From a virus, in the IMG/VR virus record IMGVR_UViG_3300017741_002240, positions 1 to 29,563 of that record: DNA of 29,563 nucleotides, one strand, 5' to 3'. Below, piece by piece: positions 1 through 29,563 of the stretch (its first letter is position 1; each line of letters begins with the position of its first letter). The position numbers and the translations under genes were made by a program. The notes beneath the pieces are model-generated. The model ran no database searches. It was given only the letters and a program-made list of their open reading frames with translations, and was not told the origin of the DNA.

Positions 1-1
1 A

Positions 2-298
2 GTTGAAGTAAAGGTCATGAAAGAAATGTTTGAAGCATCAGTAGATGGTGAAGCGTATGACATGGATCGTTTTGGTCAATATTTCCGTCCAGCGGGAATG
101 GCGGCAAGAACAGGTGATCCACAAAATAGAGCGGGTACTCCTGCTCCAGCAACACCACCAGCGGCACCAGCGGCACAAGCAACTCCAGCACCAGAAGCGG
201 CACCTGCTCCAGTAGCAGAAACTGCTCCGGCAACTGAAGCGGCACCGTCAGGTAAGGCTGAAGACATTTTGTCAATGATTAGAGCACGTCAATCATAA
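2..298 (+). CDS. C-terminal part of an Ala/Pro-tailed phage protein, possibly gp32 ssDNA-binding protein
   Basis: The frame is open from the first bases, so the 5' end lies outside the window; 98 residues are visible. It has three parts: a charged segment with KEMFEASVDG and a following FGQYF; a flexible linker of about 55 residues made almost only of Ala, Pro, Thr and Glu; and a short terminal segment, AEDILSMIRARQS. A folded body, a flexible linker and a conserved tip is the plan of many single-stranded DNA-binding proteins, and the start loosely resembles the KELFEQM region of T4 gp32. Lying directly before uvsX also fits. Against this, the tip is basic, not acidic as in T4 gp32, so the name is a guess; a scaffold or other core protein is possible. 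The linker encodes every Ala-Ala pair as GCG-GCA. Confidence 0.45.
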   Translation, partial: VEVKVMKEMFEASVDGEAYDMDRFGQYFRPAGMAARTGDPQNRAGTPAPATPPAAPAAQATPAPEAAPAPVAETAPATEAAPSGKAEDILSMIRARQS

Positions 299-312
299 AA
301 TAAACAAGATTC

Positions 313-340
313 GTAGGGGAGAAATCCCCTACTAGCTTTT
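313..340 (+). terminator. Rho-independent terminator before uvsX
   Basis: An 8-bp perfect stem (GTAGGGGA, 313-320, with TCCCCTAC, 325-332) closes a GAAA tetraloop and is followed by TAGCTTTT (333-340). It lies 15 nt after the stop of the upstream gene. GNRA loops give very stable hairpins, so this is the strongest terminator seen in the window. It should end or attenuate the upstream transcript and set uvsX expression apart. The only AGCT in the window (334-337) lies here, outside coding sequence. Confidence 0.8.
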
Positions 341-354
341 AACAAGGAGAAACT

Positions 355-1449
355 ATGGCTAAATCATTTGATGTTAGTAAGTTCCGTAAGGACCTAACAA
401 AAAGTATAACAGGTATGAGTAGTGGCTTTAACGATCCTACAGATTGGATCTCAACAGGCTCATATGCACTAAACTATCTTATTAGTGGCGACTTCCACAA
501 AGGTGTTCCATTAGGTAAGGTAACAGTGTTTGCAGGAGAATCAGGCGCAGGTAAAAGTTATTTCTGTGCAGGTAACATTGTAAAACACGCACAGGATCAA
601 GGCATCTTTGTAGTATTAATTGACTCAGAGAACGCACTTGACGAAAAATGGCTACAAGCATTAGATGTAGACACATCAGAAGAAAAACTTCTAAAACTTA
701 ACATGAGTATGATTGATGATGTTGCTAAAACAGTATCAACATTTGTAGCAGACTATAGAGCAATGCCAGAGGAAGATCGTCCTAAAGTATTATTTGTAGT
801 TGACTCATTAGGTATGTTACTAACACCTACTGATATTGATCAGTTTAACAAGGGTGATATGAAAGGTGATATGGGTCGTAAGCCAAAGCAATTGACTGCA
901 CTTGTTCGTAACACAGTTAATATGATTGGTTCGCTTAATGTAGGACTAGTATGTACTAACCACACTTATGCATCACAGGATATGTTTGATCCAGATGACA
1001 AGATCAGTGGTGGACAAGGTTTTATCTATGCATCAAGTATTGTTGTTGCAATGAAAAAGATGAAACTAAAAGAAGACGAGGCTGGCAATAAAATTTCAGA
1101 AGTACGTGGTATACGTGCAGGCTGTAAAGTTATGAAAACTCGTTATGCAAAACCTTTTGAAGGCGTACAAGTTAAGATTCCATACGAAACAGGTATGAAT
1201 CCTTATAGTGGTCTTGTTGAATTATTTGAGAAAAAAGGCTTGTTAGAAAAACAAGGTAACAGACTCAAGTACATTGATCTAAATGGAGAAGAACACCTTG
1301 ACTATCGTAAAGCATGGATAGGTGAAAAACTTGATTTGATTATGTCGGAATATGCAGAAAAAACAGCACCTGTGGTAAATACCGAAGAAGATGATATAGA
1401 AGAATCATTGTCTGACAATCAAATTGAGGAATTATCTACACATGAATGA
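355..1449 (+). CDS. uvsX: UvsX, RecA-like recombinase
   Basis: This 364-residue RecA/UvsX-family strand-exchange protein forms filaments on single-stranded DNA, with ATP hydrolysis, for recombination-dependent replication and repair. The Walker A loop GESGAGKS is at residues 61-68 and Walker B (KVLFVVDSLG) at about 144-153. A conserved segment with NHTYASQDMFDP and SGGQG follows near residues 203-222, and the C-terminus is acidic (EEDDIEES), as is usual in the family. T4 UvsX is of similar size (about 390). A strong ribosome site (AAGGAGA, 344-350) sits 4 nt before the ATG. The next genes are a small acidic protein and UvsY, the mediator of UvsX, so this is the recombination block. Confidence 0.95.
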   Translation: MAKSFDVSKFRKDLTKSITGMSSGFNDPTDWISTGSYALNYLISGDFHKGVPLGKVTVFAGESGAGKSYFCAGNIVKHAQDQGIFVVLIDSENALDEKWLQALDVDTSEEKLLKLNMSMIDDVAKTVSTFVADYRAMPEEDRPKVLFVVDSLGMLLTPTDIDQFNKGDMKGDMGRKPKQLTALVRNTVNMIGSLNVGLVCTNHTYASQDMFDPDDKISGGQGFIYASSIVVAMKKMKLKEDEAGNKISEVRGIRAGCKVMKTRYAKPFEGVQVKIPYETGMNPYSGLVELFEKKGLLEKQGNRLKYIDLNGEEHLDYRKAWIGEKLDLIMSEYAEKTAPVVNTEEDDIEESLSDNQIEELSTHE

Positions 1450-1678
1450 AGATCAAATACAAGAAACTTGGACACTATTTAAAGAATATTTAGATAAAAA
1501 ACACATTGAAACTGCGGCAGAACGCTACGTCGATCTATTAGCAGATATGGGAACCGATGATCATACCTTTAAGGAATCTATGGGATCCTGTGATATTCTC
1601 GATGGTGCAATAAAATATTACTTAGATGACGAAGAGGAAGTATTTGATGATGAAGATGGATTTGATTGGGAAGAATAA
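1442..1678 (+). CDS. Small acidic protein between uvsX and uvsY, unknown function
   Basis: 78 residues beginning MNEDQIQETWTLFKEYLDKKHIE. The first two thirds look helical, with the phrase AAERYVDLLADMGTDD; the last 20 residues are extremely acidic (DDEEEVFDDEDGFDWEE). The ATG at 1442 is preferred over an in-frame TTG at 1424 because GAGGA (1425-1429) precedes the ATG. It overlaps the end of uvsX by 8 nt, and its TAA shares a base with the uvsY start, so the three genes are translationally coupled. I recall similar small proteins in marine T4-like phages but know no function. The acidic tail could mimic DNA or contact UvsX/UvsY; that is inference. Confidence 0.75.
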   Translation: MNEDQIQETWTLFKEYLDKKHIETAAERYVDLLADMGTDDHTFKESMGSCDILDGAIKYYLDDEEEVFDDEDGFDWEE

Positions 1679-2130
1679 TGTGGTATAGTGAAGTATCTAG
1701 AAACATAAGTAGAATACCAGATGCAGTTGCATACTTCGAAACAGAGTTAGAAGAAGCAAAGCGTGAAGTTAAACTTACTGGTAATGTTGAACGTGCTTCT
1801 AGTGCTATGCCCGGCTTAGTTGAACATCGATTCAACCAACTTCAAGAAATTGAAGCCATCTTAAATTACTTGAATATCGAACTACGTAGGTTGCGTAGTT
1901 CGTATTTCAAAAAATATCTTGAAAACTATCAACGTGCATTAAGTAGTAGAGACGTTGAAAAGTATGTTGACGGCGAAGCAGATGTTGTTGACTACGAAAA
2001 AATTATAAACGAATTCGCCCTCATGCGTAACAAATGGTTAGGAGTCTTAAAAGGCCTGGACCAGAAGCAATGGCAGATAACTAATATTGTTAAGTTAAGA
2101 GTTGCTGGCATGGAGGACGCATCCGTTTAA
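1678..2130 (+). CDS. uvsY: UvsY-like recombination mediator
   Basis: 150 residues, mostly predicted helix, of a size close to T4 UvsY (137). The middle holds the pattern typical of the family: an aromatic/basic stretch (RRLRSSYFKKYLENYQRALSSRDVEKYV) and then DYEKIINEFALMRNKWLGVLKGLDQKQWQITNIVKLRVAGMED. In T4, UvsY loads UvsX onto gp32-coated DNA. The ATG at 1678 overlaps the stop of the preceding gene (TAATG); an in-frame TTG at 1666 is less likely. The name rests on family pattern and position two genes after uvsX rather than high identity, which is normal for this fast-evolving protein. Confidence 0.8.
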   Translation: MWYSEVSRNISRIPDAVAYFETELEEAKREVKLTGNVERASSAMPGLVEHRFNQLQEIEAILNYLNIELRRLRSSYFKKYLENYQRALSSRDVEKYVDGEADVVDYEKIINEFALMRNKWLGVLKGLDQKQWQITNIVKLRVAGMEDASV

Positions 2131-2927
2131 TGTATACATTTGTTACTAGCCTAAACAAGGCATATTGGAATTCAACTTCCAAAATTAATATTAATAGTTG
2201 GGTAGAATGTTTACCAGAAGATGTAAACATTGTAATTTACAGTGAAGAAGATATCGACATTGGTATTTTTCCAGAGCCACGTGTAAGTCTTAAGCCACTA
2301 TACGACTCTAAACCATTATTAGAATTTATTGCAAAACATAAAGACGATCCTCATTATAATGGACAAATTGGACGCAAACTAGAAGGTAACAAAAAAGCAT
2401 TTAAGTGGCAAGGTATAAAGTTTGCTCATAAAACTTTTGCTATTTTTGAAGAAGCAAAATGTCACGATAACGGTAAACTATTTTGGTTAGACGCTGATGT
2501 TCTTATGCATAATATGATCGATCATGCATGGTTAGATAAGTTATTACCAGACGACAAAGCAATTAGTTACTTAGGCCGACCATCAGAATATGATGAATGC
2601 GGACTAATGGGCTACAATCTTAATACACAGTTTGCAAAAGACTTTCTTACAAAGTTTGAAAATGAATACTTAGGTGGACTAGAACATCTAAGAGAAACAC
2701 ATGATAGTTGGGTATTCTTTCAACTACGATTAGGATTTGAAGATCAAACTCCTTTCCATAATTTAAATCCAGCACCAAAAGATGGCAAAAGTCCTTTCAA
2801 CAACAGTGGCATTAATAGTCATATGGTACATACAAAAGGCAAAAGTAAAGAACGTTTACAACAGAAATTTCTAAAAAGATTTGCTTTAGCAAAAGCAAGA
2901 GAAGAACGAGCATTGCATGGAACTTGA
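2130..2927 (+). CDS. DxD-type glycosyltransferase-like protein
   Basis: 265 residues with a GT-A look: an N-terminal beta-alpha segment (MYTFVTSLNKAYWNS, DVNIVIYSEED), then FKWQGIKFAHKTFAIFEEA and the metal-binding DAD at residues 121-123 within KLFWLDADVLM. Later motifs (YLGRPSEYDECGLMGYNL, ETHDSWVFFQL) match a second protein of the island, at 9406-10251, so the two are paralogues. It most likely transfers a sugar from a nucleotide donor in the host cytoplasm; donor and acceptor are unknown. The start overlaps the uvsY stop (TAATG), so the glycan island is joined to the recombination operon. The last 11 nt overlap the next gene. Confidence 0.75.
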   Translation: MYTFVTSLNKAYWNSTSKININSWVECLPEDVNIVIYSEEDIDIGIFPEPRVSLKPLYDSKPLLEFIAKHKDDPHYNGQIGRKLEGNKKAFKWQGIKFAHKTFAIFEEAKCHDNGKLFWLDADVLMHNMIDHAWLDKLLPDDKAISYLGRPSEYDECGLMGYNLNTQFAKDFLTKFENEYLGGLEHLRETHDSWVFFQLRLGFEDQTPFHNLNPAPKDGKSPFNNSGINSHMVHTKGKSKERLQQKFLKRFALAKAREERALHGT

Positions 2928-3483
2928 ACCTCACCTAGGCGGACACCAAGGTAAAACACATACTGACGAAGGAACACTTCGCTGGGCAATAGATAAATTA
3001 AATGTAAAATCAATGTTAGATGTAGGCTGTGGTCCAGGCGGAATGGTTGAACTTGCAAACAGTTTAGGTGTAGATGCTTACGGAGTTGATGGCGATTATA
3101 CTATTGAACGTTATAATAACGATAAGTTTATTATACACGATTTTACAAATGGTCCTGCACCTGTCGGAGGAACATATGATTTAGCATGGAGCGTTGAGTT
3201 TGTTGAACATGTGTACGAAGAATATATTCCTAATTACATACAAGCAATGCAGAAGTGCAAATTTTTAATTATGACGTATGCTCCAGTTGGGCACGGCGGA
3301 CATCATCATGTAAATGAAAATACACAAGAGTATTGGATTCAAACAATGTCTGACTATGGGTTTATATATCTTAAAGACTCAAGCGAAGAAATGCGTAGAC
3401 ATTCGACTATGGGTACAAAAAAGAAACACAGATTTTTAGCACGTACAGGATTACTTTTTAAAAATGAACGTAGTAGCAATTAA
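2917..3483 (+). CDS. Class I SAM-dependent methyltransferase
   Basis: 188 residues. Motif I, LDVGCGPGG, spans residues 34-42 and is followed by an acidic end of strand beta2 (GVDGDY) and the motif IV region DLAWSVEFVEHV, the usual Rossmann methyltransferase order. A histidine-rich stretch, GHGGHHHVNENTQEYW, follows motif V and resembles the substrate lid of small-molecule or sugar methyltransferases. The start overlaps the preceding glycosyltransferase gene by 11 nt, and the 3' end overlaps the next by 20 nt. In a glycan island the likely substrate is a sugar or a sugar-nucleotide, though DNA or protein cannot be ruled out. It is unlike the second methyltransferase at 17328 except in motif I. 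Confidence 0.8.
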   Translation: MELEPHLGGHQGKTHTDEGTLRWAIDKLNVKSMLDVGCGPGGMVELANSLGVDAYGVDGDYTIERYNNDKFIIHDFTNGPAPVGGTYDLAWSVEFVEHVYEEYIPNYIQAMQKCKFLIMTYAPVGHGGHHHVNENTQEYWIQTMSDYGFIYLKDSSEEMRRHSTMGTKKKHRFLARTGLLFKNERSSN

Positions 3484-4372
3484 AGAATTATTGTGGAGTT
3501 GGCATCCTTTACCGACTACTTGGAATGTTGTTCCATATGCAGATAAAGACACTATCCAAAATGCAGATGTACTTGTACAAACTAATCAATCTGGAAGTAA
3601 GAAAGAACGTAAACTAGGGCACATATATAACTATGTTAGAGATAGCGGGAAGCCTTACATTGTAGCAGAAAGTGCAGTGTTTAGAAAAAACATGCCTGAT
3701 CCAGATCCAGGTAAGCCGGGCAAGTCGTATCATAGATTCAGTTGGACAAGTTATTTTAGAGACGAAGGTGACTATTGTAATGCAAATAGCCCTAGTGATA
3801 GATGGGAACAAATTAAAAAAGATCAAAACTTAATTGTTAAAGATTGGCGCAGTAGAGGCGATTATGTATTAGTAATGTTACAACGTCCAGGAGACAGTAG
3901 CCTTGTAAAACTAATAGCAAAGCATGGATCATATGAAAACTTTGTTACCTTTACATTAAATGAAATTAAAAAATATACTGATAGACCTATAAAGGTACGT
4001 ATGCATCCATCACGCATTGATAGACAAAGGGCAATACTACAAAACTTTGATGTACAGGTAAGTGATAACCTACAAGGTGCAGGATTACTTTCAGGAGGAG
4101 CAGGACTACAGGCAGACTTTGATAATGCTTGGTGTGTAGTAGGATTTAATTCAAACGGACTTACTGAAAGTATTATGGAAGGTATTCCAACATTTAGTAT
4201 GTGTCCTAGTTCAATGGCATGGGATTGTAGTAACAAAGATTTAGCAAACATTGAAAACCCAGAAATGTTTGAAAGACAACAATGGTTAAATAATTTAGCA
4301 TACTGTCAATGGCGTGAAGATGAATGCCTTGCAGGATTGCCGTGGGAACATTTAAGGAAAAAATATGCCTAA
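3464..4372 (+). CDS. GT-B / KpsC-KpsS-like glycosyltransferase, paralogue 1 of 4
   Basis: 302 residues. The middle has GDYVLVMLQRPGDSS, then KKYTDRPIKVRMHPSR; the C-terminal half has CVVGFNSNGLTESIMEGIPTFSMCPSS and ends NIENPEMFERQQWLNNLAYCQWREDE. This order (donor-domain strand, TDRPI..R.HP, N-S....E.I..G.P) recurs in three more genes (7624, 8463, 10241). It resembles the GT-B fold of capsule proteins such as KpsC/KpsS, some of which are Kdo transferases, by the RxHP and S....EAL..G.P motifs. The resemblance is by motif only. With kdsA and kdsB in the same window, Kdo is a plausible sugar. ATG 3464 lies inside the preceding methyltransferase gene. Confidence 0.65.
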   Translation: MNVVAIKELLWSWHPLPTTWNVVPYADKDTIQNADVLVQTNQSGSKKERKLGHIYNYVRDSGKPYIVAESAVFRKNMPDPDPGKPGKSYHRFSWTSYFRDEGDYCNANSPSDRWEQIKKDQNLIVKDWRSRGDYVLVMLQRPGDSSLVKLIAKHGSYENFVTFTLNEIKKYTDRPIKVRMHPSRIDRQRAILQNFDVQVSDNLQGAGLLSGGAGLQADFDNAWCVVGFNSNGLTESIMEGIPTFSMCPSSMAWDCSNKDLANIENPEMFERQQWLNNLAYCQWREDECLAGLPWEHLRKKYA

Positions 4373-5925: not shown

Positions 5926-5951
5926 ATTATTATTTACCGATTAACTGCGTA

Positions 5952-5959
5952 CATAAATA
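5952..5959 (+). promoter_or_regulatory. Possible T4-type late promoter, CATAAATA
   Basis: CATAAATA matches the T4 late box TATAAATA in 7 of 8 positions. It lies 5 nt before the ATG at 5965, inside the only gap between divergent genes in this island. In T4 the transcript begins about 6 nt after the box, which would be the A of the ATG. A single mismatched octamer in AT-rich DNA is weak evidence; the matching geometry at 24917 is what makes it worth listing. Confidence 0.3.
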
Positions 5960-5964
5960 TCTAC

Positions 5965-9404: not shown

Positions 9405-9405
9405 T

Positions 9406-11085: not shown

Positions 11086-11091
11086 GTAAGC

Positions 11092-13850: not shown

Positions 13851-13857
13851 TTAAACT

Positions 13858-16620: not shown

Positions 16621-16641
16621 TTAACTAAAAGGAGAACATAT

Positions 16642-17328
16642 ATGTTCACAAAACTACTAGAAGGTGTTGATAAAACACTCGTAAGAAATCTAGTTATTTT
16701 ACACACGTTAGTAATTGCTGTGTCAAATTATCTAGTAACCATTAGGTTTGATCTATTCCCAGGTGCAGAACTGCCCTTGTTTGGATCATTTCCTTTAGCG
16801 GCGGCGGCGTTTACATTTCCGATCGTTGTCGTAGCAACTGACTTGACAGTCCGTCTTGTTGGTAAAGAAGCAGGAAGAGCAGTCGTAGCGATGGCTATTA
16901 TTCCGGCTATCGTTGCATCGGTACTTGTGCTATTAGCACTAGGTGACGAACATGCCTACAGAGTAGGACTAGCATCTGGTACTGCATATGCAGTAGGTAC
17001 AATGCTTGACGTATATGTATTCCAACATATTCGTGAACGTTACACACAAGCATGGTGGGCGGCACCAGCAATTTCAACTATTGTAGCCAACATCATTGAT
17101 ACATATGCATTCTTCTACACAGCATTTTATCCTGCGCCATGGGTTGGACCAGTAGCATTCAACAATACATTAACAAAAATTGTTGTAGGCTTAATTGTGT
17201 TCCTTCCAGCATATGGATTGTTACTTTCATTCTTAAAAAATAAGTTTGGTGTTGACGCACTTGTACTTAAAGACGAAGTAAAGCCAAAAGCAAAAGCAAA
17301 GGCTAAAAAGAAAGCAACAAAAAAATAA
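16642..17328 (+). CDS. yhhQ: YhhQ/VUT-family 7-deazaguanine precursor transporter
   Basis: 228 residues with about six membrane segments. Family pattern: LHTLVIAVSNYLVTIRFDLF, FPIVVVATDLTVRLVGKEAGRAVV, ASGTAYAVGTMLDVYVFQHIRER and STIVANIIDTYAFFYTAF. YhhQ (DUF165/VUT) proteins import preQ0 or preQ1 for queuosine, and phage copies accompany 7-deazaguanine DNA modification. A segment of four Ala codons is GCG repeated four times (16798-16809), striking in AT-rich DNA. The tail is a short Lys/Ala repeat (KPKAKAKAKKKATKK). Ribosome site AAAGGAGA lies 8 nt before the ATG. It follows folE by 21 nt, so one transcript is likely. Confidence 0.87.
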   Translation: MFTKLLEGVDKTLVRNLVILHTLVIAVSNYLVTIRFDLFPGAELPLFGSFPLAAAAFTFPIVVVATDLTVRLVGKEAGRAVVAMAIIPAIVASVLVLLALGDEHAYRVGLASGTAYAVGTMLDVYVFQHIRERYTQAWWAAPAISTIVANIIDTYAFFYTAFYPAPWVGPVAFNNTLTKIVVGLIVFLPAYGLLLSFLKNKFGVDALVLKDEVKPKAKAKAKKKATKK

Positions 17329-17861: not shown

Positions 17862-17862
17862 A

Positions 17863-18120
17863 ATGATACCAGGAGAAGCATTAATATACACTAGGGCAGA
17901 CGGAGTTGTATATGCACAGTATAGAGATCCTCCACATAACAATATTCCAAGATGGGTCATAGGTGGAGACCCCGGAGGTGTAGCAAGAGCACAAGGCGAA
18001 TTATTTGATTATTTAGAATGGCAGGATTTATGCAAACTGTCAATGTCTAATCCTACACTAAAAAAATTAATGGATAAGTTAATTAACACCTACTATATTG
18101 CTAAGGAGGAAAATCAATGA
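17863..18120 (+). CDS. Small conserved-looking protein, unknown
   Basis: 85 residues: MIPGEALIYTRADGVVYAQYRDPPHNNIPRWVIGGDPGG, then a helical end (AQGELFDYLEWQDLCKLSMSNPTLKKLMDKLINTYYIAKEE). The ATG at 17863 is chosen over an upstream in-frame one at 17806 because the latter would overlap the methyltransferase by 56 nt. It ends in an ATGA overlap with the HAD gene. I recall similar short proteins in cyanophages but no function. Confidence 0.65.
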   Translation: MIPGEALIYTRADGVVYAQYRDPPHNNIPRWVIGGDPGGVARAQGELFDYLEWQDLCKLSMSNPTLKKLMDKLINTYYIAKEENQ

Positions 18121-18455
18121 AATATGTTATCGATATAGATGGAACTATTTGTAAGGAAGTAATTATTCCTGACAGCGGCGGTAAGAAGGATTATGCAAAT
18201 CATATTCCTATGCCAGAACGCATTGCAAAAGTAAATGCATTATATGATGCAGGACATACAATCAAATACATGACTGCAAGAGGTTGTGTAAGTGGAGTAG
18301 ACTACTACAACTTAACAAACAATCAATTAGTTAAATGGGGTGCTAAGTTTCACGAACTAAGTGTAGGACAAAAAGAAAACTACGATATATGGATTGACGA
18401 TAAAGCGTTTTGGAGTGAAAACTTTTTTAGAGAAACAGGAGAATCATATGAGTAA
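18117..18455 (+). CDS. HAD-type phosphatase, small capsule-biosynthesis type
   Basis: 112 residues. HAD motif I DIDGT at 6-10 (nucleophile Asp6, acid/base Asp8), motif II threonine in YMTARG at 51-56, Lys86 as probable motif III, and motif IV IDDKA at 93-97. The TARG..SG...YN.T..QL..WGAK order and the 112-residue length match the small EcbF/BcbF-like phosphatases of capsule clusters rather than true KdsC (about 180 residues, tetrameric). Its substrate is probably a sugar phosphate; Kdo-8-phosphate is possible because kdsA and kdsB follow in the same operon. The start follows AAGGAGGAAAA at 18105-18115. Confidence 0.8.
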   Translation: MKYVIDIDGTICKEVIIPDSGGKKDYANHIPMPERIAKVNALYDAGHTIKYMTARGCVSGVDYYNLTNNQLVKWGAKFHELSVGQKENYDIWIDDKAFWSENFFRETGESYE

Positions 18456-19242
18456 ATTTATTGCGGCAATGGACCATAGCGGAGGCTCAACAGGAGGAGT
18501 ACTTGAACGTTACGGTTGTGAATATACAGAAGATAACAAAATGGACCTTGTACATGAGATGAGGTTGCGTATGATCAATAGTCCAAAGTTCACAAGTGAT
18601 AATATTTGGGCGGCAATTTTATATAAGGATAGTGTTGAACGAGGTGCAGTAGATGTGCTTGCAACAAAGGGAATTCATTCTATTTTAAAAGTTGATAGTG
18701 GGTGTCATATGAACGGTTTGCTTAAAGACTTTCCATTAGATGATATGATTGATTATGCCTTAGCAAAAGGATGTACAGGAACTAAGATGCGTAGCATTAT
18801 AAAGACTCCTAATATAATGAATGCAGTATTAGATCAACAATTTGAATTAGCAACAGTTATATCTGCGGCAGGACTAATGCCAATTGTCGAACCTGAAATT
18901 CCAATTGAGCATGAAATGAAAACAATGATAGAAGAAATGATTGCACGAGAATTACAAAATAGATTAGATAGATTTGAAGGCAAGTGTATTTTAAAACTTA
19001 CATTACCTGAAACGCCTAATCTATATTTGAGACTATCACAACATCCTAATGTTGATAAAGTAGTTGGCCTAAGTGGCGGATATAGTACAGTTGAAGCATG
19101 TAATAGACTTGCTTTGCAAGAAAATATGACTGCTAGTTTTAGTCGTGCATTAAGTGAGGGGTTATTTGTTAATCAAACAGATGAAGAGTTTAACCAAAGG
19201 ATTAGTGAAAACATTAAAGCAATTACAATAGCAAGCGAATAA
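18448..19242 (+). CDS. fda: Class I fructose-bisphosphate aldolase (microbial type)
   Basis: 264 residues (bacterial proteins about 295). It follows the staphylococcal-type class I aldolase closely: FIAAMDHSGGST at 4-15, ILKVDSGCH at 79-87, GTKMRS at 111-116, IVEPEIPI at 146-153, the probable Schiff-base Lys183 in ILKLTLP, LSGGYS at 208-213 and ASFSRALSEGL near 237. The enzyme splits fructose 1,6-bisphosphate to DHAP and glyceraldehyde 3-phosphate, or the reverse. ATG 18448 is chosen for AGGAGA at 18437-18442. It overlaps the HAD gene by 8 nt. In infection it could shift carbon toward pentose or PEP-derived sugars, which would feed Kdo. Confidence 0.9.
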   Translation: MSKFIAAMDHSGGSTGGVLERYGCEYTEDNKMDLVHEMRLRMINSPKFTSDNIWAAILYKDSVERGAVDVLATKGIHSILKVDSGCHMNGLLKDFPLDDMIDYALAKGCTGTKMRSIIKTPNIMNAVLDQQFELATVISAAGLMPIVEPEIPIEHEMKTMIEEMIARELQNRLDRFEGKCILKLTLPETPNLYLRLSQHPNVDKVVGLSGGYSTVEACNRLALQENMTASFSRALSEGLFVNQTDEEFNQRISENIKAITIASE

Positions 19243-19245
19243 ATT

Positions 19246-19647
19246 ATGGCATACAGAACAGAAGCAAAATTATTTCAAGACGGTGACTTTACAAGTCATG
19301 CAGGATTACCTTTAAAATGGAAATTAGAATGTGATGCTATTCGTCCAAGTGAATGGAAAACAATAGCAAAGATGATTATGGATTATCAAATAGGTCCTTT
19401 TTATAAAGCAGAAGGAATACCTAGAGGTGGTGTAGCATTAGGTGATGCACTAAATGAATATGCAAGTGGTAATCCAAAAGATCCTATTCTAATTGCAGAT
19501 GATGTATACACTACTGGTACAAGTTTTCGTGAATACATTGATACATTTCATAAAGACAAGTTTGTATATAAATGGTGTGTCTTTGCTCGCAAGCAACCTG
19601 ACAATGAAGTTAAAGCATTGTTTACTATGCCGGAGCCACGTAAATGA
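19246..19647 (+). CDS. Type I phosphoribosyltransferase-like protein
   Basis: 133 residues. The PRPP-binding signature ILIADDVYTTGTS is at 81-93, with the loop GIPRGGVALGDAL at 57-69 in front of it, as in type I PRTases such as PyrE. It is shorter than most full enzymes (about 180-210), so the acceptor hood is reduced. It could act in nucleotide salvage or as a binding relative of PRTases. It starts 3 nt after the aldolase stop and overlaps the cupin by ATGA. Confidence 0.8.
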   Translation: MAYRTEAKLFQDGDFTSHAGLPLKWKLECDAIRPSEWKTIAKMIMDYQIGPFYKAEGIPRGGVALGDALNEYASGNPKDPILIADDVYTTGTSFREYIDTFHKDKFVYKWCVFARKQPDNEVKALFTMPEPRK

Positions 19648-19973
19648 AAGTAAGTATCAACGAAATAGGCGGCGAAGTTGCTAAACAAGATGAACGATAT
19701 GTTGTAAAAGATAACACAACACTAAAGAATTTAGTAGTAAGTAGTACTAGATTACAATCACGAAAATCAACATCAGGCCATAAGCATGAAGGCCAAGAAG
19801 AAGTATATTACTTTATTGAAGGTACTGGTAAGATGGAACTAGACAACGAAATGATTAAAGTTGAGCCAGGCGATGTTGTATTAATTGAAGACGGAGTATT
19901 CCATAGAGTACACGCCGGCATGCACGAAGAACTTTACTTTGTATGTGTGTTTGATGGAAGGAGATCACATTGA
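19644..19973 (+). CDS. Cupin-fold protein
   Basis: 109 residues, a full single cupin: GHKHEGQEEVYYFIEGTGKMEL (metal His, His, Glu) and PGDVVLIEDGVFHRVHAG (second box, His). The domain resembles sugar or small-molecule cupins found in LPS clusters. It has a clean cupin box, unlike the one at 14375. A ribosome site for kdsA (GGAAGGAG, 19956-19963) is embedded in its last codons, and the stop TGA overlaps the TTG of kdsA. Its place between PRTase and kdsA suggests a role in the same sugar pathway; the reaction is unknown. Confidence 0.8.
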   Translation: MKVSINEIGGEVAKQDERYVVKDNTTLKNLVVSSTRLQSRKSTSGHKHEGQEEVYYFIEGTGKMELDNEMIKVEPGDVVLIEDGVFHRVHAGMHEELYFVCVFDGRRSH

Positions 19974-20743
19974 GAATTATTGCAGGTCCATGTCAACATG
20001 AGACGCTAGAACAAAGTTTAGAAACAGCAAAGCATTGTGCTGAAGTTTGTAGTAAACATAATATTGAATATATTTTTAAAGCAAGTTTTGACAAAGCAAA
20101 TCGTAGTAGTGACCAAGGTGTAAGAGGTGTTGGACTACAAACTACTATGGAAGACTTTCGTGCGATTAAAGAACAAGTAGATTGTAAAACTATTACAGAT
20201 GTGCATAACCAAAATGAAATATTAAAAATTGCGGCATACTATAATGATGCTGTAGATGTTTTACAAATACCTGCGTTCTTATGTAGACAAACTGATCTCA
20301 TAAAGGCGGCTTGTCGCACAGGCAAGATAGTAAATATAAAGAAGGGACAATTTCTTGCTCCCTGGGATGTCAATGGTATACTAAGCAAGTGTGCTGACGC
20401 TAAAGAGATATGGATTACTGAGAGAGGAACTAGTTTTGGTTACAATAGCCTTGTGGTCGACTATACTGGTCTTATGTATATGCTCGATAATGTTGACGCT
20501 GATATCGTTTTCGATGTTACACACTCTGTCCAAAAACCCGGAGGACTTGGAACTAGTTCAGGTGGTAATAGGGATTACGTTCCTGGGTTGGCTCGTAGCG
20601 GGTCTGCTCTTGGGATCAGTTCCTTCTTCATTGAAGTACACCCATTGCCTGATCAGTCCCCAAGTGACGGGCCGAATATGTTACGACTAGATGATTTTGA
20701 GGAGGTAGTAAATGACATCGTCCGCTATTCTTATACCCGCTAG
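19970..20743 (+). CDS. kdsA: 3-deoxy-8-phosphooctulonate synthase (KdsA), metal-dependent type
   Basis: 257 residues. KdsA condenses arabinose 5-phosphate with PEP to Kdo-8-phosphate. Markers: AGPCQHE at 5-11; the family loop FKASFDKANRSS at 36-47; LQIPAFLCRQTDLI at 98-111; NIKKGQFLAP at 122-131; FDVTHSVQKPGG at 181-192; SSFFIEVHP at 218-225; DGPN at 233-236. Cys8, His185, Glu222 and Asp233 are the metal ligands of the metal-dependent class (Aquifex type); E. coli has Asn in place of the Cys. The start is TTG, set by GGAAGGAG 6 nt before it and by a first strand beginning RIIAGPC. It overlaps kdsB by 32 nt. Confidence 0.93.
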   Translation: MRIIAGPCQHETLEQSLETAKHCAEVCSKHNIEYIFKASFDKANRSSDQGVRGVGLQTTMEDFRAIKEQVDCKTITDVHNQNEILKIAAYYNDAVDVLQIPAFLCRQTDLIKAACRTGKIVNIKKGQFLAPWDVNGILSKCADAKEIWITERGTSFGYNSLVVDYTGLMYMLDNVDADIVFDVTHSVQKPGGLGTSSGGNRDYVPGLARSGSALGISSFFIEVHPLPDQSPSDGPNMLRLDDFEEVVNDIVRYSYTR

Positions 20744-21407
20744 ATACGGAAGCACACGATTCGAAGGCAAACCGTTGTGTATGTTGGACAACGTTCCTAT
20801 GATAAAACGTGTGTATGACGCTTGTATTGCGTCTAAGATACCAACATACGTGCTTACTGATGACATACGTATCTTTAGTTTGTTTGGTTCTAACAAGTGT
20901 TGGATTGAAGAAGAACAAATAGCACCATATGCAAACGGTACTGAACGATGCGTTGGCGCTGTAACAAAGTGGGATGAACTAAAACAATACGATCAGTTCA
21001 TTAACGTACAAGGTGATATGCCAGATGTTACACTACAAATGATAGAACGTTGTGTTGAGTGGTTGAAGTATTATCCTATCAGTACAGTATGGACAGACAT
21101 GCCAGAAGAAATGCAAAACAATCCTGACTCAGTTAAAATGGTTAGAGCAGGTGACCAAGCCCTTTGGTTTGGTAGAGGAATGACTGGCTACGGAGATTGG
21201 CACTTAGGTATATACGGATATAAACGAGAAGCATTAGAACTATACAGTGGTTTAGAAGTTACACAAGAAGAAGAAGTTGAAAAACTAGAGCAGTTACGTT
21301 GGCTAAAAAATGGTTGGCAAATAGGCTGTAGTAGTGTACAATTTAATGGTACAGAAATTAATTCACCAGAGGACGTCGATATATGGCACAATCAAAACTC
21401 CCAATAA
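20712..21407 (+). CDS. kdsB: CMP-Kdo synthetase (KdsB)
   Basis: 231 residues (E. coli 248). The enzyme activates Kdo with CTP. The nucleotide loop IPARYGSTRFEGKPL is at 8-22, followed by YVLTDDIRI, the GTERC segment near 76-80 (GTDR in the family) and the metal motif INVQGDMPD at 97-105 (INVQGDEP in the family). The EEEVEKLEQLRWLKNGWQI stretch near 187-205 matches the conserved EKLEQLR helix. AGGAGG lies in the kdsA 3' end just before ATG 20712. Paired with kdsA this gives two of the three steps from arabinose 5-phosphate to CMP-Kdo; the HAD protein at 18117 could be the third. Confidence 0.9.
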   Translation: MTSSAILIPARYGSTRFEGKPLCMLDNVPMIKRVYDACIASKIPTYVLTDDIRIFSLFGSNKCWIEEEQIAPYANGTERCVGAVTKWDELKQYDQFINVQGDMPDVTLQMIERCVEWLKYYPISTVWTDMPEEMQNNPDSVKMVRAGDQALWFGRGMTGYGDWHLGIYGYKREALELYSGLEVTQEEEVEKLEQLRWLKNGWQIGCSSVQFNGTEINSPEDVDIWHNQNSQ

Positions 21408-24548: not shown

Positions 24549-24556
24549 TCTTTTTT
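24535..24556 (+). terminator. Possible weak terminator at convergent gene ends
   Basis: A 7-bp AT-rich stem (AGATTAA 24535-24541 / TTAATCT 24545-24551, loop GTC) is followed by five T (24552-24556) on the + strand. It overlaps the stop codons of both convergent genes. The stem is weak, so this may act only as a pause or partial terminator. The minus strand has no T run after the hairpin. Confidence 0.45.
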
Positions 24557-24909: not shown

Positions 24910-24916
24910 GATTTCC

Positions 24917-24924
24917 TATAAATA
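24917..24924 (+). promoter_or_regulatory. T4-type late promoter TATAAATA
   Basis: A perfect TATAAATA, the T4 late box read by phage sigma gp55, is 4 nt before the ATG at 24929. In T4 the transcript starts about 6 nt after the box, which here falls at 24930, so the mRNA would carry almost no leader. It is in the 19-nt gap between the divergent minus-strand gene and the virion-like gene. Confidence 0.75.
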
Positions 24925-24928
24925 CAAT

Positions 24929-25711
24929 ATGCAATTAATACCTAGATATTTAGTCAATAACAGAACCGCAGTATTAATAAACGATAGCGGATTCGCAACG
25001 GAGTATAGACCAGTGTACAGTAGAAATCTAAAAATTTACAGAGGCATTGACAACAACTTAGAATTTAAAATTCTCAATGCAGATCAAAAACCTATATCGC
25101 TTACTAGTAAGACAGTAAAGTTAGTAGCGTTTGATGAAAATAATAATCAAGTGCTTGATGAAACAGGTACTAATCATTTAACTATAAAAGGACTGACAAC
25201 AGTTATTGTAAGTGAAAACGATTTGCTAAGTGTAAAAGATCAATTCTTAAAATATGCAGTACACGTTGAAGATGCAAGCCAAAACAAAACTATCACATAT
25301 TCAAATGTACACTTTGAAAACGATGGTGTAATGCAAGTATCTAGCGAAGCGTATCCGGGTGCAAAAGATAGTAAGAGTATTACTACGTTTACAGAAGACA
25401 CAGGTGAAACAGGAGTAGACGATAGTGTATGGCACAGTGAAAGTATAAGTGCTGAGCCAGGTATTAATGGCAACGAAGCAGTACATACAGCCGCAATATA
25501 TACTGACAGTTATGTAGGTGATGTAAAAGTACAAGTTACGCTAGATAACCAAATAGTTGTTAGTACAAATTGGGCAGACGTTGCAACTGTAAGTTTTAAC
25601 AATGAAACTGCACCAGTACCAGTAAACTTTACAGGTGTATTCAATTATGTTAGATTTGAAGCATCTGCAGACCCTGCAAGCAAAATAACCAACATATTAG
25701 TCAGAAATTAG
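24929..25711 (+). CDS. Probable virion structural protein (tail-fibre/neck type, beta-rich)
   Basis: 260 residues, rich in Thr, Val, Asn and Ser and with little helix. Two parts are visible: an N-terminal Ig-like domain (RPVYSRNLKIYRGIDNNLEFKILNADQKPISLTSKTVKLVAFDENNNQVL), which resembles the BppU N-terminal fold of phage baseplate/fibre proteins, and a C-terminal beta domain (VHTAAIYTDSYVGDVKVQVTLDNQIVVSTNWADVATVSFNN...VNFTGVFNYVRFEA). The late promoter in front of it supports a virion role. ATG 24929 is preferred because an upstream ATG (24872) lies within the minus-strand gene and before the late promoter. Confidence 0.7.
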   Translation: MQLIPRYLVNNRTAVLINDSGFATEYRPVYSRNLKIYRGIDNNLEFKILNADQKPISLTSKTVKLVAFDENNNQVLDETGTNHLTIKGLTTVIVSENDLLSVKDQFLKYAVHVEDASQNKTITYSNVHFENDGVMQVSSEAYPGAKDSKSITTFTEDTGETGVDDSVWHSESISAEPGINGNEAVHTAAIYTDSYVGDVKVQVTLDNQIVVSTNWADVATVSFNNETAPVPVNFTGVFNYVRFEASADPASKITNILVRN

Positions 25712-25740
25712 TTGACAAACTAACACAAGTACGTTATAAT
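25712..25740 (+). promoter_or_regulatory. Consensus sigma70 promoter, leaderless, for primase
   Basis: TTGACA (25712-25717), 17-bp spacer, TATAAT (25735-25740), 12 of 12 consensus. It is followed by AATAGT and ATG (25747), so the expected start, 7 nt past the -10 box, is the A of the ATG. The 16 nt from the -10 box (25735-25750) are identical to those in front of gp41 (28075-28090). Confidence 0.88.
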
Positions 25741-25746
25741 AATAGT

Positions 25747-26730
25747 ATGAGTGTAGTAGCCGAGACAGTTCTGACATATCTGCCGCCTAAGCGGAAAACA
25801 ACGCCTAGTGGCTGGACTTCATTCAACGCTCCGTGTTGTCATCATAATGGTCATACAGCAGACAAAAGAAACCGCGGTGGTCTTATATCTAATCCGGATG
25901 GTGGTGTAAGTTATCATTGTTTCAACTGTGGCTTTAAGGCTAGTTGGCAACCCGGACGTAACTTTTCACATAAACTGCGTAAACTTCTACAATGGTTAGG
26001 AGCACCTGACGATATAATCAATAAGGTAGCATTTGATGTTATGCGAGAAAACGAAGGCGTTGATGTGCAAGAGCATGTTGCTAAACTTCCTACATTCAAT
26101 ACAGTGCCATTACCAGATGATGCTACAAAAGTTGCTGACATAAAAAACTTTGACAAGTATAGTCTTGCTATACTTGAATATATGTCTAGTCGTAATCTTA
26201 ATTTAGACGATACTGATTATTATTGGTCTCCAAGTTTAGGATACCGTGATAGACTTATTGTTCCTTTCTATTATGAAAAACGTATTGTAGGATGGACTGG
26301 TAGAAGTATTGTTGCTGATAAAAAACCTAAGTACCTAACAGAAGTACAGCCTGGCTTTGTATATGGGTTAGATGAACAAGGTCCTAATAAAATCTTTTGT
26401 ATAGTTGTTGAAGGACAACTTGACGCTATACATATTGATGGATGTGCATTAGGTGGAAGTGAGATAGCAGATCAACAAGCCATGCTTTTAAATAGATTGC
26501 AAAAACAAATCATAGTTGTTCCTGATAGAGATAAAGCAGGAAGTAAACTAGTAGAGGAATCTATTGAAAAAGGTTGGTGTGTTAGTATGCCTGAATGGAG
26601 CCAGGATATTTGCGATGTTGGTGATGCAGTTAGTAAATACGGTAGACTATACACATTATACAGCATTGTAAATGCGGCTAATGAGAGTCCACTTAAAATA
26701 AGATTGAGAGCAAAGAAATGGTTTACATAA
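25747..26730 (+). CDS. DNA primase, gp61-like
   Basis: 327 residues (T4 gp61 342). The zinc-binding domain at about 30-61 has Cys/His pairs (PCCHHNGH) and YHCFNCGF. Residues 135-200 carry YRDRLIVPFYYEKRIVGWTGRSI, the start of the catalytic domain; the TOPRIM core follows as VVEGQLDA at 220-227 (acidic Glu222) and VVPDRDKAG at 257-265 (Asp260, Asp262). It makes the RNA primers of the lagging strand with gp41. A promoter sits directly before the ATG with no leader and no ribosome site, so translation probably starts on a leaderless mRNA. The small gene at 26718 overlaps its end by 13 nt. Confidence 0.92.
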   Translation: MSVVAETVLTYLPPKRKTTPSGWTSFNAPCCHHNGHTADKRNRGGLISNPDGGVSYHCFNCGFKASWQPGRNFSHKLRKLLQWLGAPDDIINKVAFDVMRENEGVDVQEHVAKLPTFNTVPLPDDATKVADIKNFDKYSLAILEYMSSRNLNLDDTDYYWSPSLGYRDRLIVPFYYEKRIVGWTGRSIVADKKPKYLTEVQPGFVYGLDEQGPNKIFCIVVEGQLDAIHIDGCALGGSEIADQQAMLLNRLQKQIIVVPDRDKAGSKLVEESIEKGWCVSMPEWSQDICDVGDAVSKYGRLYTLYSIVNAANESPLKIRLRAKKWFT

Positions 26731-26840
26731 AAAAACTAATAGAGTGGCTTTGTACTCCGTATACAAGGTATAAGGAAAACAAGGCTTTTAAAAAACGTAT
26801 GGAAGAACTTAAGAAAAGGGATCCATTTATATACAAGTAA
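26718..26840 (+). CDS. 40-residue basic protein, missed by size-limited gene finding
   Basis: A short frame from ATG 26718 to TAA 26840: MVYIKKLIEWLCTPYTRYKE, then NKAFKKRMEELKKRDPFIYK. It is strongly basic and helical, with a WLCTPYTRY turn and a terminal KKRDPFIYK. It fills the 123-nt space between primase and the next gene and overlaps the primase stop by 13 nt, as the phage's other coupled genes do. I recall similar short proteins with the KKRDPFIYK end in cyanophages. Its place between primase and helicase genes suggests a replication role, which is inference. Confidence 0.65.
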   Translation: MVYIKKLIEWLCTPYTRYKENKAFKKRMEELKKRDPFIYK

Positions 26841-26856
26841 GGAGTATTGAATATTG

Positions 26857-27078
26857 ATGACTGAGTTTACAAAAGGTATAGGTAGCATATTCAAAAATAA
26901 TAGCCTTGCACTAGCAGTAATCTATACGCTAGGACATGTTGTTATTGCTATGACAGTTGTTAGTATGATGACTGGCGCAAGCCTATGGGAAGCAGGTGCA
27001 GTTGCACTAGTTGAACCTGCAATTAACGGTGTATGGTTTTATGTACTGCACTCATTATGGAAGAAATTTAATACATGA
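26857..27078 (+). CDS. DUF2061-like small membrane protein
   Basis: 73 residues. Two membrane segments: SLALAVIYTLGHVVIAMTVVSMM and ASLWEAGAVALVEPAINGVWFYVLHSLWKKF. The second carries the VEPAINGVWFYVLHSLWKK phrase that matches DUF2061 (VE...K...YYLHE..W). Function of DUF2061 is unknown. The ATG at 26857 or a TTG at 26854 could be the start; AAGGAG (26839-26844) is 12 or 9 nt before them. It overlaps the carbamoyltransferase start by ATGA. Confidence 0.7.
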   Translation: MTEFTKGIGSIFKNNSLALAVIYTLGHVVIAMTVVSMMTGASLWEAGAVALVEPAINGVWFYVLHSLWKKFNT

Positions 27079-28079
27079 ACATAACATGGGGTGTGGTTGG
27101 AAACAGTCACGATGCTAGTCTGGCAGTGTTTAATACAAGACTTGCCGGTCTAACAGATCATTACACAACAGAATTACTTTGGGCAAGTTTATCTAAAGAC
27201 TTTTCAAAAATTCCTAATGACCCTCACTTAAACCAAATGCAAGTTGATGTAGCAATACAAAGTTTTGGTAGACCAAATAAAGTTGTTTGGTACGAACGTC
27301 CATTACTTAAGACATGGCGTCAATGGCGAGCAGGCCAGGGTTGGTTATATAAAGAAAATAATATTAAAGAATATCTCAAACGTTGGGATATAAACTGTAA
27401 GATTGAATACACCCAACACCATCTTTCACATGCGGCATATGCGTACTACACTCAACCCTATGACGACTGTGCAGTGATTTGTTTAGATAGTATTGGAGAG
27501 TTCGAGACCCTAACAGTATGGCACGGGAAGAACAACAAACTTGAACAAGTATACAGCCAAGGGTATCCGCATAGCCTAGGACTTTTTTATAGTGCTATGA
27601 CACAGCGTATGGGGCTAGTGCCACAGCGTGATGAATATCTTGTTAGCCAGTGGGCAAAAAAAGGCGACCCTAAACGTTTATTACATGACATGCGTAAAGA
27701 ACTTATCGACGTTGATCATGATAAGGCTAACCCACAAGAAATAAGAATGAGAGAGAACATGCACCGTGGATGTATGTGGTGGAGGCCTGAATTAGAATCA
27801 AAACAAGACATGTATGATATAGCGGCCGCTACACAGTTCTTGTTTGAATATGCAGTAAATATACTAAGCATATATGCAAAATTAACTACAGGTTCAAAAC
27901 ATATTGCATTAGCAGGTGGTGGTGCTCTTAATAGAGATGCAATAGAGAAAATTAAACCTCATTGGGATACAGTATACGTACCAACTAATCCAGGCGATCC
28001 TGGTAGTTGTATAGGTGCTGTAGTAGCAAAAAGTAAACAAAAAATAGTGCTTGACAAACAGTGGTATCAGAAAGTATAA
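27075..28079 (+). CDS. NodU-family carbamoyltransferase, N-terminal domain only
   Basis: 334 residues, corresponding to the Kae1-like N-terminal domain of NodU/TobZ proteins (full length about 570). Present: MNITWGVVGNSHDASLAVF, the metal motif HHLSHAAYAYY near 115-125, CLDSIGEFETLTVWHG, YPHSLGLFYSAMTQRMGL and the ATP site ALAGGGALNRDAI followed by VPTNPGDPGSCIGAV. The C-terminal YrdC-like domain, which makes carbamoyl-AMP, is missing, and the next gene is the helicase, so no partner is adjacent. In marine T4-like phages NodU-like proteins recur; the acceptor (sugar, nucleobase, protein) is unknown. Its stop lies within the -10 box of the gp41 promoter. Confidence 0.85.
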   Translation: MNITWGVVGNSHDASLAVFNTRLAGLTDHYTTELLWASLSKDFSKIPNDPHLNQMQVDVAIQSFGRPNKVVWYERPLLKTWRQWRAGQGWLYKENNIKEYLKRWDINCKIEYTQHHLSHAAYAYYTQPYDDCAVICLDSIGEFETLTVWHGKNNKLEQVYSQGYPHSLGLFYSAMTQRMGLVPQRDEYLVSQWAKKGDPKRLLHDMRKELIDVDHDKANPQEIRMRENMHRGCMWWRPELESKQDMYDIAAATQFLFEYAVNILSIYAKLTTGSKHIALAGGGALNRDAIEKIKPHWDTVYVPTNPGDPGSCIGAVVAKSKQKIVLDKQWYQKV

Positions 28080-28080
28080 T
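28051..28080 (+). promoter_or_regulatory. Consensus sigma70 promoter, leaderless, for gp41
   Basis: TTGACA (28051-28056), 18-bp spacer, TATAAT (28075-28080). AATAGT and ATG (28087) follow, so the predicted start is the A of the ATG, as at 25747. The -35 box is in the 3' end of the carbamoyltransferase gene, and the -10 box contains its stop codon. Confidence 0.85.
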
Positions 28081-28086
28081 AATAGT

Positions 28087-29496
28087 ATGACAAGACAGAA
28101 TACAGATTACGGATATGATATACAAAAAGTATATCTAGAAATGATGATGACAGACGCTGAGTCGTTTGTTAGATGTCAGGCTGTGTTTGATCCAAAAACA
28201 TTTGATAGACGCTTGCAACCACAAGCAAAGTTTCTTAATGATTATGTAACTGAACATAATGCTATGCCTACATTTGATATGATTAATGCGGCAACTGAAG
28301 GAGACTTAAAACATCCAGGCGAACTAATGGAGAATCATTATGATTGGCTGTTGCAAGAGTTTGAAACATTTAGTAGACACAAAGCATTAGAAGCGGCTAT
28401 ACTTAAAAGTGCAGACTTACTTGAAAACGGTGAGTATGGTCCAGTAGAAGATTTAGTTAAGAAGGCTGTACAGATTGGATTACAAAAAGACTTGGGTACA
28501 GATTATTTTAAAGATCCAAGAAGCAGACTAGAAGGCATCAAAGATAAGAACGGACAGATATCAACAGGCTGGGCTAACTTAGATAAGAAACTATTTGGTG
28601 GGTTCAACAGAGGTGAACTGAATATCTTTGCAGGTGGCTCAGGGTCTGGTAAGAGTTTGTTCTTGGCTAACTTGGGTGTGAACTTTGCACTTACAGGGTT
28701 GAACGTTGTATACTTGACGTTTGAACTTTCAGAAGCATTAGTTAGTATGCGTGTTGATAGTATGACTACAGACATTCCAAGTAGAGACATTTTCAAGAAC
28801 ATTGATGATGTTGAAATGAAAGTTAAGATGATTGGTAAGAAGTCTGGGGCATTCCAAGTTAAGTATATGCCAACAGGTAAGAATGCAAACGACATTAGAA
28901 GTTATTTGAAAGAGTATGAGATTAAGACAGGCAAGAAAGTAGATGTATTGCTTGTAGACTATTTAGATTTGATGCACCCTATCGCGGCTAAGATTAGTGC
29001 AGAGAACTTATTTGTAAAAGACAAGTACGTATCAGAAGAACTACGTAACTTGGCAATGGAACTAAACACTATCTTTGTTACAGCATCACAGTTAAACAGA
29101 AGTAGTGTAGAAGAAATTGAGTTTGATCATTCGCACATCAGTGGTGGTATATCTAAGATTAATACAGCAGATAACTTAATTGGTATCTTTACAAGTAGGG
29201 CTATGCGTGAGCGTGGCAGATATCAAATACAACTTATGAAGACTAGAAGCAGTAGTGGTGTTGGACAAAAGATTGATTTAGAGTTTGATGTAGACAGTTT
29301 GCGTATTAGAGATTTAGATGATGACGATGATCAACAAAGTTATTCAACGCAAAGAAGTAATACAGTATTTGATCAAATTAAAAGAGGAACAACTACAAAC
29401 GAAGAACCAGATGCAGGAACTTCGGCTCCTAAAATAAAAGCAGAAGCAGATTCAACTAAACTAAAACAATTCTTAAATAACTTAGGTGACGAATAA
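28087..29496 (+). CDS. DnaB-family replicative helicase, gp41-like
   Basis: 469 residues (T4 gp41 475). Walker A GGSGSGKS at 183-190, the STGWANLDKKLFGGFNRGELNIFAG entry to the RecA core at 159-183, Walker B VDVLLVDYLDLM (Asp291), the ASQLNRSS motif and HISGGISKINTADNLIGIF, then the arginine-finger region LMKTRSSSGVGQK. The acidic tail (DLDDDDDQQSYSTQ) ends the protein; tails of this kind contact partners. It forms the hexamer that unwinds the fork and activates primase. The ATG at 28087 has no ribosome site and follows the -10 box by six bases; the frame continues upstream without a better start. Confidence 0.94.
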   Translation: MTRQNTDYGYDIQKVYLEMMMTDAESFVRCQAVFDPKTFDRRLQPQAKFLNDYVTEHNAMPTFDMINAATEGDLKHPGELMENHYDWLLQEFETFSRHKALEAAILKSADLLENGEYGPVEDLVKKAVQIGLQKDLGTDYFKDPRSRLEGIKDKNGQISTGWANLDKKLFGGFNRGELNIFAGGSGSGKSLFLANLGVNFALTGLNVVYLTFELSEALVSMRVDSMTTDIPSRDIFKNIDDVEMKVKMIGKKSGAFQVKYMPTGKNANDIRSYLKEYEIKTGKKVDVLLVDYLDLMHPIAAKISAENLFVKDKYVSEELRNLAMELNTIFVTASQLNRSSVEEIEFDHSHISGGISKINTADNLIGIFTSRAMRERGRYQIQLMKTRSSSGVGQKIDLEFDVDSLRIRDLDDDDDQQSYSTQRSNTVFDQIKRGTTTNEEPDAGTSAPKIKAEADSTKLKQFLNNLGDE

Positions 29497-29498
29497 CC

Positions 29499-29563
29499 GT
29501 GTTAGAAAAATTAGAAACACTAGAACAAGTGTATGCACTATGTCAGGATGATCCGGTCCGCCC
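29499..29563 (+). CDS. Start of a gene after gp41, cut by the window edge
   Basis: A GTG at 29499 opens a frame that runs off the end: (V)LEKLETLEQVYALCQDDPVRP, 21 residues visible. It follows the gp41 stop by two nucleotides, with AGGTGA close before it, so it is probably cotranscribed. The segment resembles the start of small acetyltransferase-like phage proteins, but 21 residues do not allow a name. Confidence 0.5.
   Translation, partial: MLEKLETLEQVYALCQDDPVR

Follow-up and report, generated by a model that had tools for sequence, protein, structure and literature searches.

The viral record IMGVR_UViG_3300017741_002240 comprises 29,563 bases in total, and the stretch analysed here (the window, positions 1–29,563) covers the whole record. 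It represents part of the genome of an uncultured jumbo T4-like phage and has no GCWGC (W, A or T) and a single AGCT. As judged from sequence, the lineage has very probably eliminated the recognition sites of two Type II restriction enzymes of its hosts, one of AluI type for AGCT and the other of TseI/ApeKI type for GCWGC. AluI recognises AGCT, and TseI and ApeKI recognise GCWGC. The loss of sites and its excess over codon use are observed directly in the DNA, and the enzymes themselves are what we infer from them. Restriction-site elimination is a known kind of phenomenon; its completeness over long stretches and its turnover among sister phages are beyond routine.

Loss of AGCT and GCWGC from the window

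An initial annotation of the window had reported no GCWGC and one AGCT at 334–337, and a recount agrees exactly, with both GCAGC and GCTGC at zero. At the G+C content of the window (35.6%), independent bases would give ~93 AGCT and ~18 GCWGC, close to the rough figures of ~100 and ~20 offered earlier. A maximal-order Markov model, the check suggested in the annotation, expects 60.9 AGCT (z −10.1) and 22.4 for the GCAGC/GCTGC pair (z −5.9), which makes AGCT the lowest 4-mer and GCWGC the lowest 5-mer in the window by z. The ratios of 1/60.9 and 0/22.4 lie below 0.1 at expectations above 15, which we count as elimination, the expectation being a Markov one and not the statistic of Rusinov 2018. 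Both words are palindromic by inspection, and both are recognition sites of orthodox Type II enzymes. The other words said to be present do occur: GCGGC 32 times, GCCGC 8, GATC 99, CCWGG 30, GGCC 23 and TCGA 36. A few palindromes are slightly low (observed/expected: CATG 95/141, GGCC 23/38, GCGC 12/25, CGCG 4/16).

The deficit exceeds what codon use produces. When synonymous codons were shuffled 500 times among the open reading frames (ORFs), with each protein and the codon usage preserved, AGCT came to 79.5 ± 7.5 (minimum 60) and GCWGC to 31.8 ± 3.0 (minimum 24), against zero for each in the actual ORFs; the GATC control stood at 97 against 94.3. The shuffled set was 44 mechanically called ORFs of 29,622 bases, in which overlaps count twice and from which one 52-aa ORF was dropped. 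Alanine is encoded by GCA or GCT in 482 of 572 codons (GCA 347, GCT 135, GCG 55, GCC 35), and the first codon of all 32 Ala-Ala pairs is GCG (27) or GCC (5), as the annotation had noticed. Both of its examples of synonymous escape from GCWGC were found again, namely four GCG codons in a row at 16798–16809 (+ strand), inside the gene of a Vut_1 transporter, and GCG-GCC-GCT at 27822–27830 (+ strand), inside a carbamoyltransferase gene. The sole AGCT (334–337) had been assigned to a terminator. It is intergenic, between two ORFs, and its setting is terminator-like by eye, with a perfect inverted repeat of 7 bp immediately 5′ of the word and a T run after it.

Word loss among related phages

Relatives were collected in three viral-contig scans as loci L001–L160 and L412–L487, the latter range entering only the locus-word comparison of elimination rates below, and 24 long contigs were covered over all or nearly all of their length. 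States were called in 158 related records (purged, <0.25 of expectation; present, >0.45; expectation at least 4.5). Both words are missing from 38 of these, GCWGC alone from 36 and AGCT alone from 5; neither is missing from 56, and the remaining 23 are intermediate or uncallable for one word. The distributions are two-peaked. Of 151 records, 28 have AGCT at less than 0.05 of expectation, 23 at 0.05–0.5 and 100 above, and for GCWGC the corresponding numbers are 34, 20 and 57 of 111. Loss of one word is associated with loss of the other (odds ratio 11.8, p 4e-8, not corrected for relatedness). A comparison with related phages had also been suggested at the outset, and it shows the avoidance to be specific to lineage and to word.

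Large phages can empty stretches of 80–120 kb of words expected 100–200 times. GCWGC is absent from the long contigs G003 (0/140 observed/expected, in 117 kb), G007 (0/131) and G033 (0/106) and from two further contigs (0/99 and 0/85), and AGCT from G029 (0/216, in 96 kb), G038 (0/183) and another (0/100). Other palindromes are gone in other kin: GTAC from G040 (0/102), CTAG from G011 (0/87) and G015 (1/88), and CATG from G002 (2/117). The longest contigs, G010, G001 and G018, hold both words in near normal numbers. Since kin keep both words, lose one or both, or lose CTAG, GTAC or CATG, the pressures on AGCT and GCWGC are separable. When all 4-mers were scanned in 25 contigs, the strongly depleted ones were palindromes without exception; this 4-mer and 5-mer scan stops 0.6–2.5 kb short of the end in G001, G015, G023, G035 and G002.

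A tally of 169 records, which covered only palindromic 4-mers and eight 5-mers, counted a word as nearly eliminated below 0.12 of expectation at an expectation of at least 9. By this measure AGCT is nearly eliminated in 39 of 162 testable records, GCWGC in 34/122, CTAG in 13/166, GCGC in 6/105, CATG in 5/169, CCWGG in 2/121 and ACGT in 2/167, and GTAC, TGCA and CGCG in one record each. The same thresholds were applied to pairs of locus and word in three jumbo-clade sets and in control loci with a UvsX of cyanophage type (L332–L411), which were fetched with the UvsX of Synechococcus phage S-RIM2. Eliminated pairs number 52/1199 (40 of 80 loci), 48/1306 (36/80) and 35/1251 (24/76) in the jumbo sets and 50/1109 (38/80, with AGCT in 12) in the controls. 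The rates are thus similar and AGCT is eliminated in both, which makes the phenomenon ordinary for such phages and the set of words its distinctive part: in this comparison elimination of GCWGC and CTAG is confined to the jumbo sets, and that of CCGG, GATC, TCGA, GGCC and TTAA to the cyanophage-type loci.

Shortages of further words were noted in passing. ACGCT and AGCGA are scarce in G038 (L168–L172) and ACGCT in G016 (L173–L175), perhaps reflecting a further asymmetric target. When uncultured relatives are pooled, three of the four state classes, including the one with normal AGCT and GCWGC, are short of GTGCAC and GCACGC, and GTGCAC is flagged individually in 9 of 25 contigs.

Inheritance and turnover of the purged state

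The UvsX/RecA-like recombinase encoded at 355–1449 (+ strand) served as the marker for placing the window and its relatives on a tree, which was built by a quick method from 93 of the 95 records with the UvsX family (>250 aa). With records scored as purged below 0.2 and present above 0.4 of expectation, at an expectation of at least 5, the least number of state changes is 9 for AGCT, 12 for GCWGC and 3 for CTAG, each under the value in all 100 shuffles (means 24.5, 27.2 and 8.7). The loss of words is an inherited but labile trait.

The tree group of the window has 12 rows, and the forks within it are only partly resolved. Its purged members are the window, L081, G029 and L083; G001, L085 and L086 bear sites; L087, L089, L090 and L092 are of the GCWGC-only class; and L084 has GCWGC present with an intermediate count of AGCT. 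Because AGCT and GCWGC are at normal numbers in G001, L085 and L086, the state turns over inside one tree group. The initial annotation had read the missing words as a mark of long selection by restriction systems. Selection is well supported, and “long” needs qualifying in view of these three records with similar UvsX.

Routes of site loss and leftover sites

Codon alignments were made between the purged window group and site-bearing kin at 67% nucleotide identity. At the sites of the kin the purged group has 0/402 AGCT and 0/225 GCWGC, zeros that follow from the choice of group, and control words are kept at 16–32%. For GCWGC, the 109 single changes listed include 68 in which the middle A/T became G or C and 11 of the C-to-T or G-to-A type, which suggests that this word was lost mostly through synonymous-type changes and not through C-to-T decay. 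The predominance of changes at the middle W points to selection and agrees with the excess of GCSGC (S, G or C). For AGCT, 96 of 195 listed changes are C-to-T or G-to-A (controls: TGCA 79/316, ACGT 68/148), and since this is half of them, we weight decay of methylated cytosine slightly up and host restriction slightly down.

Sites that remain in purged contigs are often bunched. In G015 all ten AGCT and GCWGC sites lie inside 1.1 kb close to one end. In G041, 7 of 16 AGCT fall inside 3 kb spanning most of two tandem genes that the rest of the 158 records lack, and in G039, 5 of 7 leftovers surround a gene for porphobilinogen deaminase (PF01379) that is exclusive to G039 among the records. The simplest reading is that bunched leftovers are recently imported DNA awaiting purge, and on that reading a few sites are tolerated.

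Two of these loci deserve a description of their own. The two tandem related ORFs of ~420 aa at L179:16938–19474 have CxxCH motifs and many leftover AGCT, and none of the remaining records has them; the one of them that was scanned has no Pfam match. The hemC-like porphobilinogen deaminase gene at L236:4930–5787 stands in a purged phage with the surrounding AGCT retained, and is probably a recent gain.

Host restriction enzymes as the probable cause

Host Type II enzymes fit because the targets are palindromic, escape goes beyond codon bias, the trait is inherited with switching, and a few sites are tolerated. The restriction selection proposed in the annotation is upheld on much the same grounds: palindromic words, loss beyond the synonymous null, specificity to lineage and word, and alternatives that find no support. 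The alternatives tested were composition, codon use, library artefact, decay of methylated cytosine and a methyltransferase or nuclease encoded by the phage; none found support, this being less firm for the last three. In the mechanism we propose, every unprotected site would be a chance for an enzyme to cut the phage DNA. Variants with fewer sites would survive better, and synonymous changes would strip the sites to almost none. A lineage would meet given host enzymes for a time, and the pattern of lost words would follow host range. New sites would arrive with acquired genes and be purged later, as the clustered leftovers in some contigs suggest.

Elimination of this kind has precedent. According to the parts of Rusinov 2018 (PMC6286503) available, orthodox Type II sites are eliminated, most strongly in non-temperate double-stranded DNA phages, and 3.9% of phage-site pairs are excluded. 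Those phages resemble ours in that orthodox Type II palindromes are reduced to almost none, and the rates are only roughly comparable, as the statistic and word list differ. There, hosts and enzymes are known; here the jumbo clade is uncultured, more sites are expected per genome, and many switches occur within one clade. A review describes the same strategy of restriction-site elimination, nucleus-forming jumbo phages being shielded instead (PMC12707154). Among the matches listed, titles and abstract openings contain no report of AGCT or GCWGC elimination in jumbo phages, and a search of PMC9516812, PMC12570018 and PMC11094077 for the words found nothing of relevance. In the portion available of a study of Lake Biwa, which names GCWGC as the TseI site, N4-methylcytosine (m4C) methylation of GCWGC (M.AbaBS3I) and of AGCT is described in Chloroflexi and Thaumarchaeota (PMC6329791). 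Both specificities thus exist in aquatic prokaryotes, but in different organisms for each word.

Several results weigh against host restriction. No cognate enzyme was found, no host having been identified in which to look for one. The Lake Biwa methyltransferases for GCWGC and AGCT, in Chloroflexi and a thaumarchaeon, have no partner nuclease listed in the part of that source available (PMC6329791). Elimination of GATC was found in 0/169 records and of GGCC in 0/134. Both are common restriction specificities. Non-palindromic words can be strongly low too (ACGCT 1/20 in G038 and 1/26 in G016; AGCGA 1/20 in G038). A sizeable share of records is intermediate, at 0.05–0.5 of expectation (23/151 for AGCT, 20/111 for GCWGC), and of five sets of leftovers tested for bunching two show none (G011, p 0.25; G038, p 0.99).

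Cultured jumbo phages provide the finding that would be least expected if the cause were host-specific. GCGC is at zero in XaC1, RaK2, 121Q, CBB and Erwinia phage SNUABM_47 (L281, L284, L289–L308; 80–130 kb sampled each, 268 expected overall), and this one word is therefore gone from phages of five host genera. For host enzymes to explain this, such systems would need to be, or to have been, widespread in those hosts. In the same five phages, in that order, the non-palindromic GACATC occurs 7, 2, 41, 0 and 1 times per whole record, against 160, 80, 92, 143 and 126 for the reversed word; it is nearly absent from four records and only partly depleted in 121Q. The non-palindromic CCCAG (2/62 in Atu_ph07, 8/66 in the Erwinia phage) and CTCTTC (0/28 in the Erwinia phage) are low as well. 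In PA5oct (130 kb sampled), MIJ3 (40 kb) and Vibrio 2.275 (110 kb), no word falls below 0.3 at p under 1e-5. Two other losses were seen in cultured phages: CTGCAG is at zero in four of the five GCGC-free ones, and CCWGG is lost in two jumbo phages of unrelated hosts, Atu_ph07 (1/84; L279, L313–L316) and SCTP-2 (0/53; L283, L323–L326).

If host restriction is the cause, the missing words are a readable record of the restriction enzymes a lineage has met. They could then aid host assignment for uncultured jumbo phages, and comparison of sisters would let the speeds of purging and of site regain be measured.

Alternative explanations

It is conceivable, though improbable, that a sequence-specific nuclease encoded by the phage destroys host or competitor DNA, and that the phage, without a methyltransferase, protects itself by lacking the sites. 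Identical words missing across host genera in cultured kin (GCGC in five, CTGCAG in four, GACATC in four) would suit such an enzyme. Its gene could have been missed, as the purged contigs, at 30–117 kb, are probably pieces of ~300-kb genomes. When 4418 ORFs of the 158 records were grouped into 1288 clusters, a screen of the long contigs associated 18 families with the GCWGC state and 3 with the AGCT state (20 distinct). Seventeen of the 20 were scanned with Pfam (all but fam154, fam45 and fam74) and none of these has a nuclease domain. Families associated with purged records resemble markers of lineage: the annotated ones comprise 2OG-Fe(II) oxygenases, radical SAM enzymes and a Vut_1 transporter, and the rest, fam55 among them, are without annotation. 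PADLOC, run on ten proteins, matched no nuclease; its matches were one to 2OG and a weak one to Cmr5. In favour of such an enzyme is fam55, a family of ~100 aa in 13 records (L235:5248–5562 and 12 others), all purged of both AGCT and GCWGC (p 8e-9 for AGCT, relatedness not corrected). It has no Pfam or PADLOC match, and it is missing from the purged window and from the long purged contigs G029 and G038. Among 22 records, HNH domains above the cut-off occur only in the site-bearing G001 and G010, with a match below the cut-off in purged G003, and GIY-YIG in 0/22. No nuclease or methyltransferase was found to track the purged state in the genomes compared, which are partial. The 20 window ORFs scanned with Pfam have no methyltransferase or nuclease domain except the ResIII match of a UvsW-like helicase. 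Clustered leftovers in some purged contigs also speak against an enzyme that would cut its own genome constantly and so should forbid them.

In a broader form of this idea, which we hold to be about equally improbable, the cause is borne by the phage as an exchangeable nuclease module, or as an inherited packaging or replication enzyme, that attacks these palindromes, and each jumbo lineage would have to clear its own genome of the word its module reads. On this view, the disappearance of GCGC in phages of five host genera would be another instance among cultured kin.

Nor is it likely that the loss is driven by a word-reading host defence other than a restriction-modification pair. The sequence alone cannot separate a restriction enzyme from another nuclease that reads words, and certain non-palindromic words are strongly low in kin, but the words lost from the window and all strongly depleted 4-mers of the 25 contigs are palindromic. 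We take AGCT, GCWGC and these 4-mers to be classic Type II specificities. As far as the available parts of Rusinov 2018 go, Type I and IIG sites are not avoided and Type III sites are in few cases (PMC6286503).

Even less probable is decay of methylated cytosine, in which a host or phage cytosine methyltransferase would mark the words and the methylated base would deaminate. The m4C at GCWGC and AGCT published for lake prokaryotes (PMC6329791) is in its favour, as is the share of C-to-T and G-to-A changes at AGCT relative to TGCA, though the ACGT control is similar. The few such changes at GCWGC, compared with 68 from W to G or C, already disfavour it for that word, and among phage methyltransferases PF00145 is present in 0/41 and PF01555 in 1/41 records (the window's own record not among the 41), with none in the 20 scanned window ORFs. 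Composition, codon bias or a library artefact, to which the slight general palindrome deficit in the window might point, is next to impossible, being refuted by the synonymous shuffles and by contigs that differ within metagenome 3300020442 (G016 lacks both words, G033 GCWGC only).

Gene content of the window

The DnaB-like replicative helicase of the window (28051–29496, + strand) has as its best cultured matches the jumbo phages PA5oct, Atu_ph07, Phosso, XaC1, Vibrio 2.275.O and SCTP-2, at 43–56% identity. The Pfam scan of 20 ORFs found, among others, a GTP cyclohydrolase I, the Vut_1 transporter, an aldolase, DAHP_synth_1, CTP_transf_3, the carbamoyltransferase and the UvsW-like helicase. 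The DAHP_synth_1 and CTP_transf_3 proteins are presumably KdsA- and KdsB-like, and their genes form a block at 18117–21407 with a small ORF and the gene of the class I aldolase. The aldolase gene was tried as a pointer to the host. Two small contigs, from a Hellea and a Bacteroidetes metagenome-assembled genome, share further phage genes and carry AGCT and GCWGC, and are therefore uninformative on the host. The DAHP_synth_1 and CTP_transf_3 families occur in 18 and 20 of the 158 records, respectively, and AGCT is present in 17 and 19 of these, the window being the exception.

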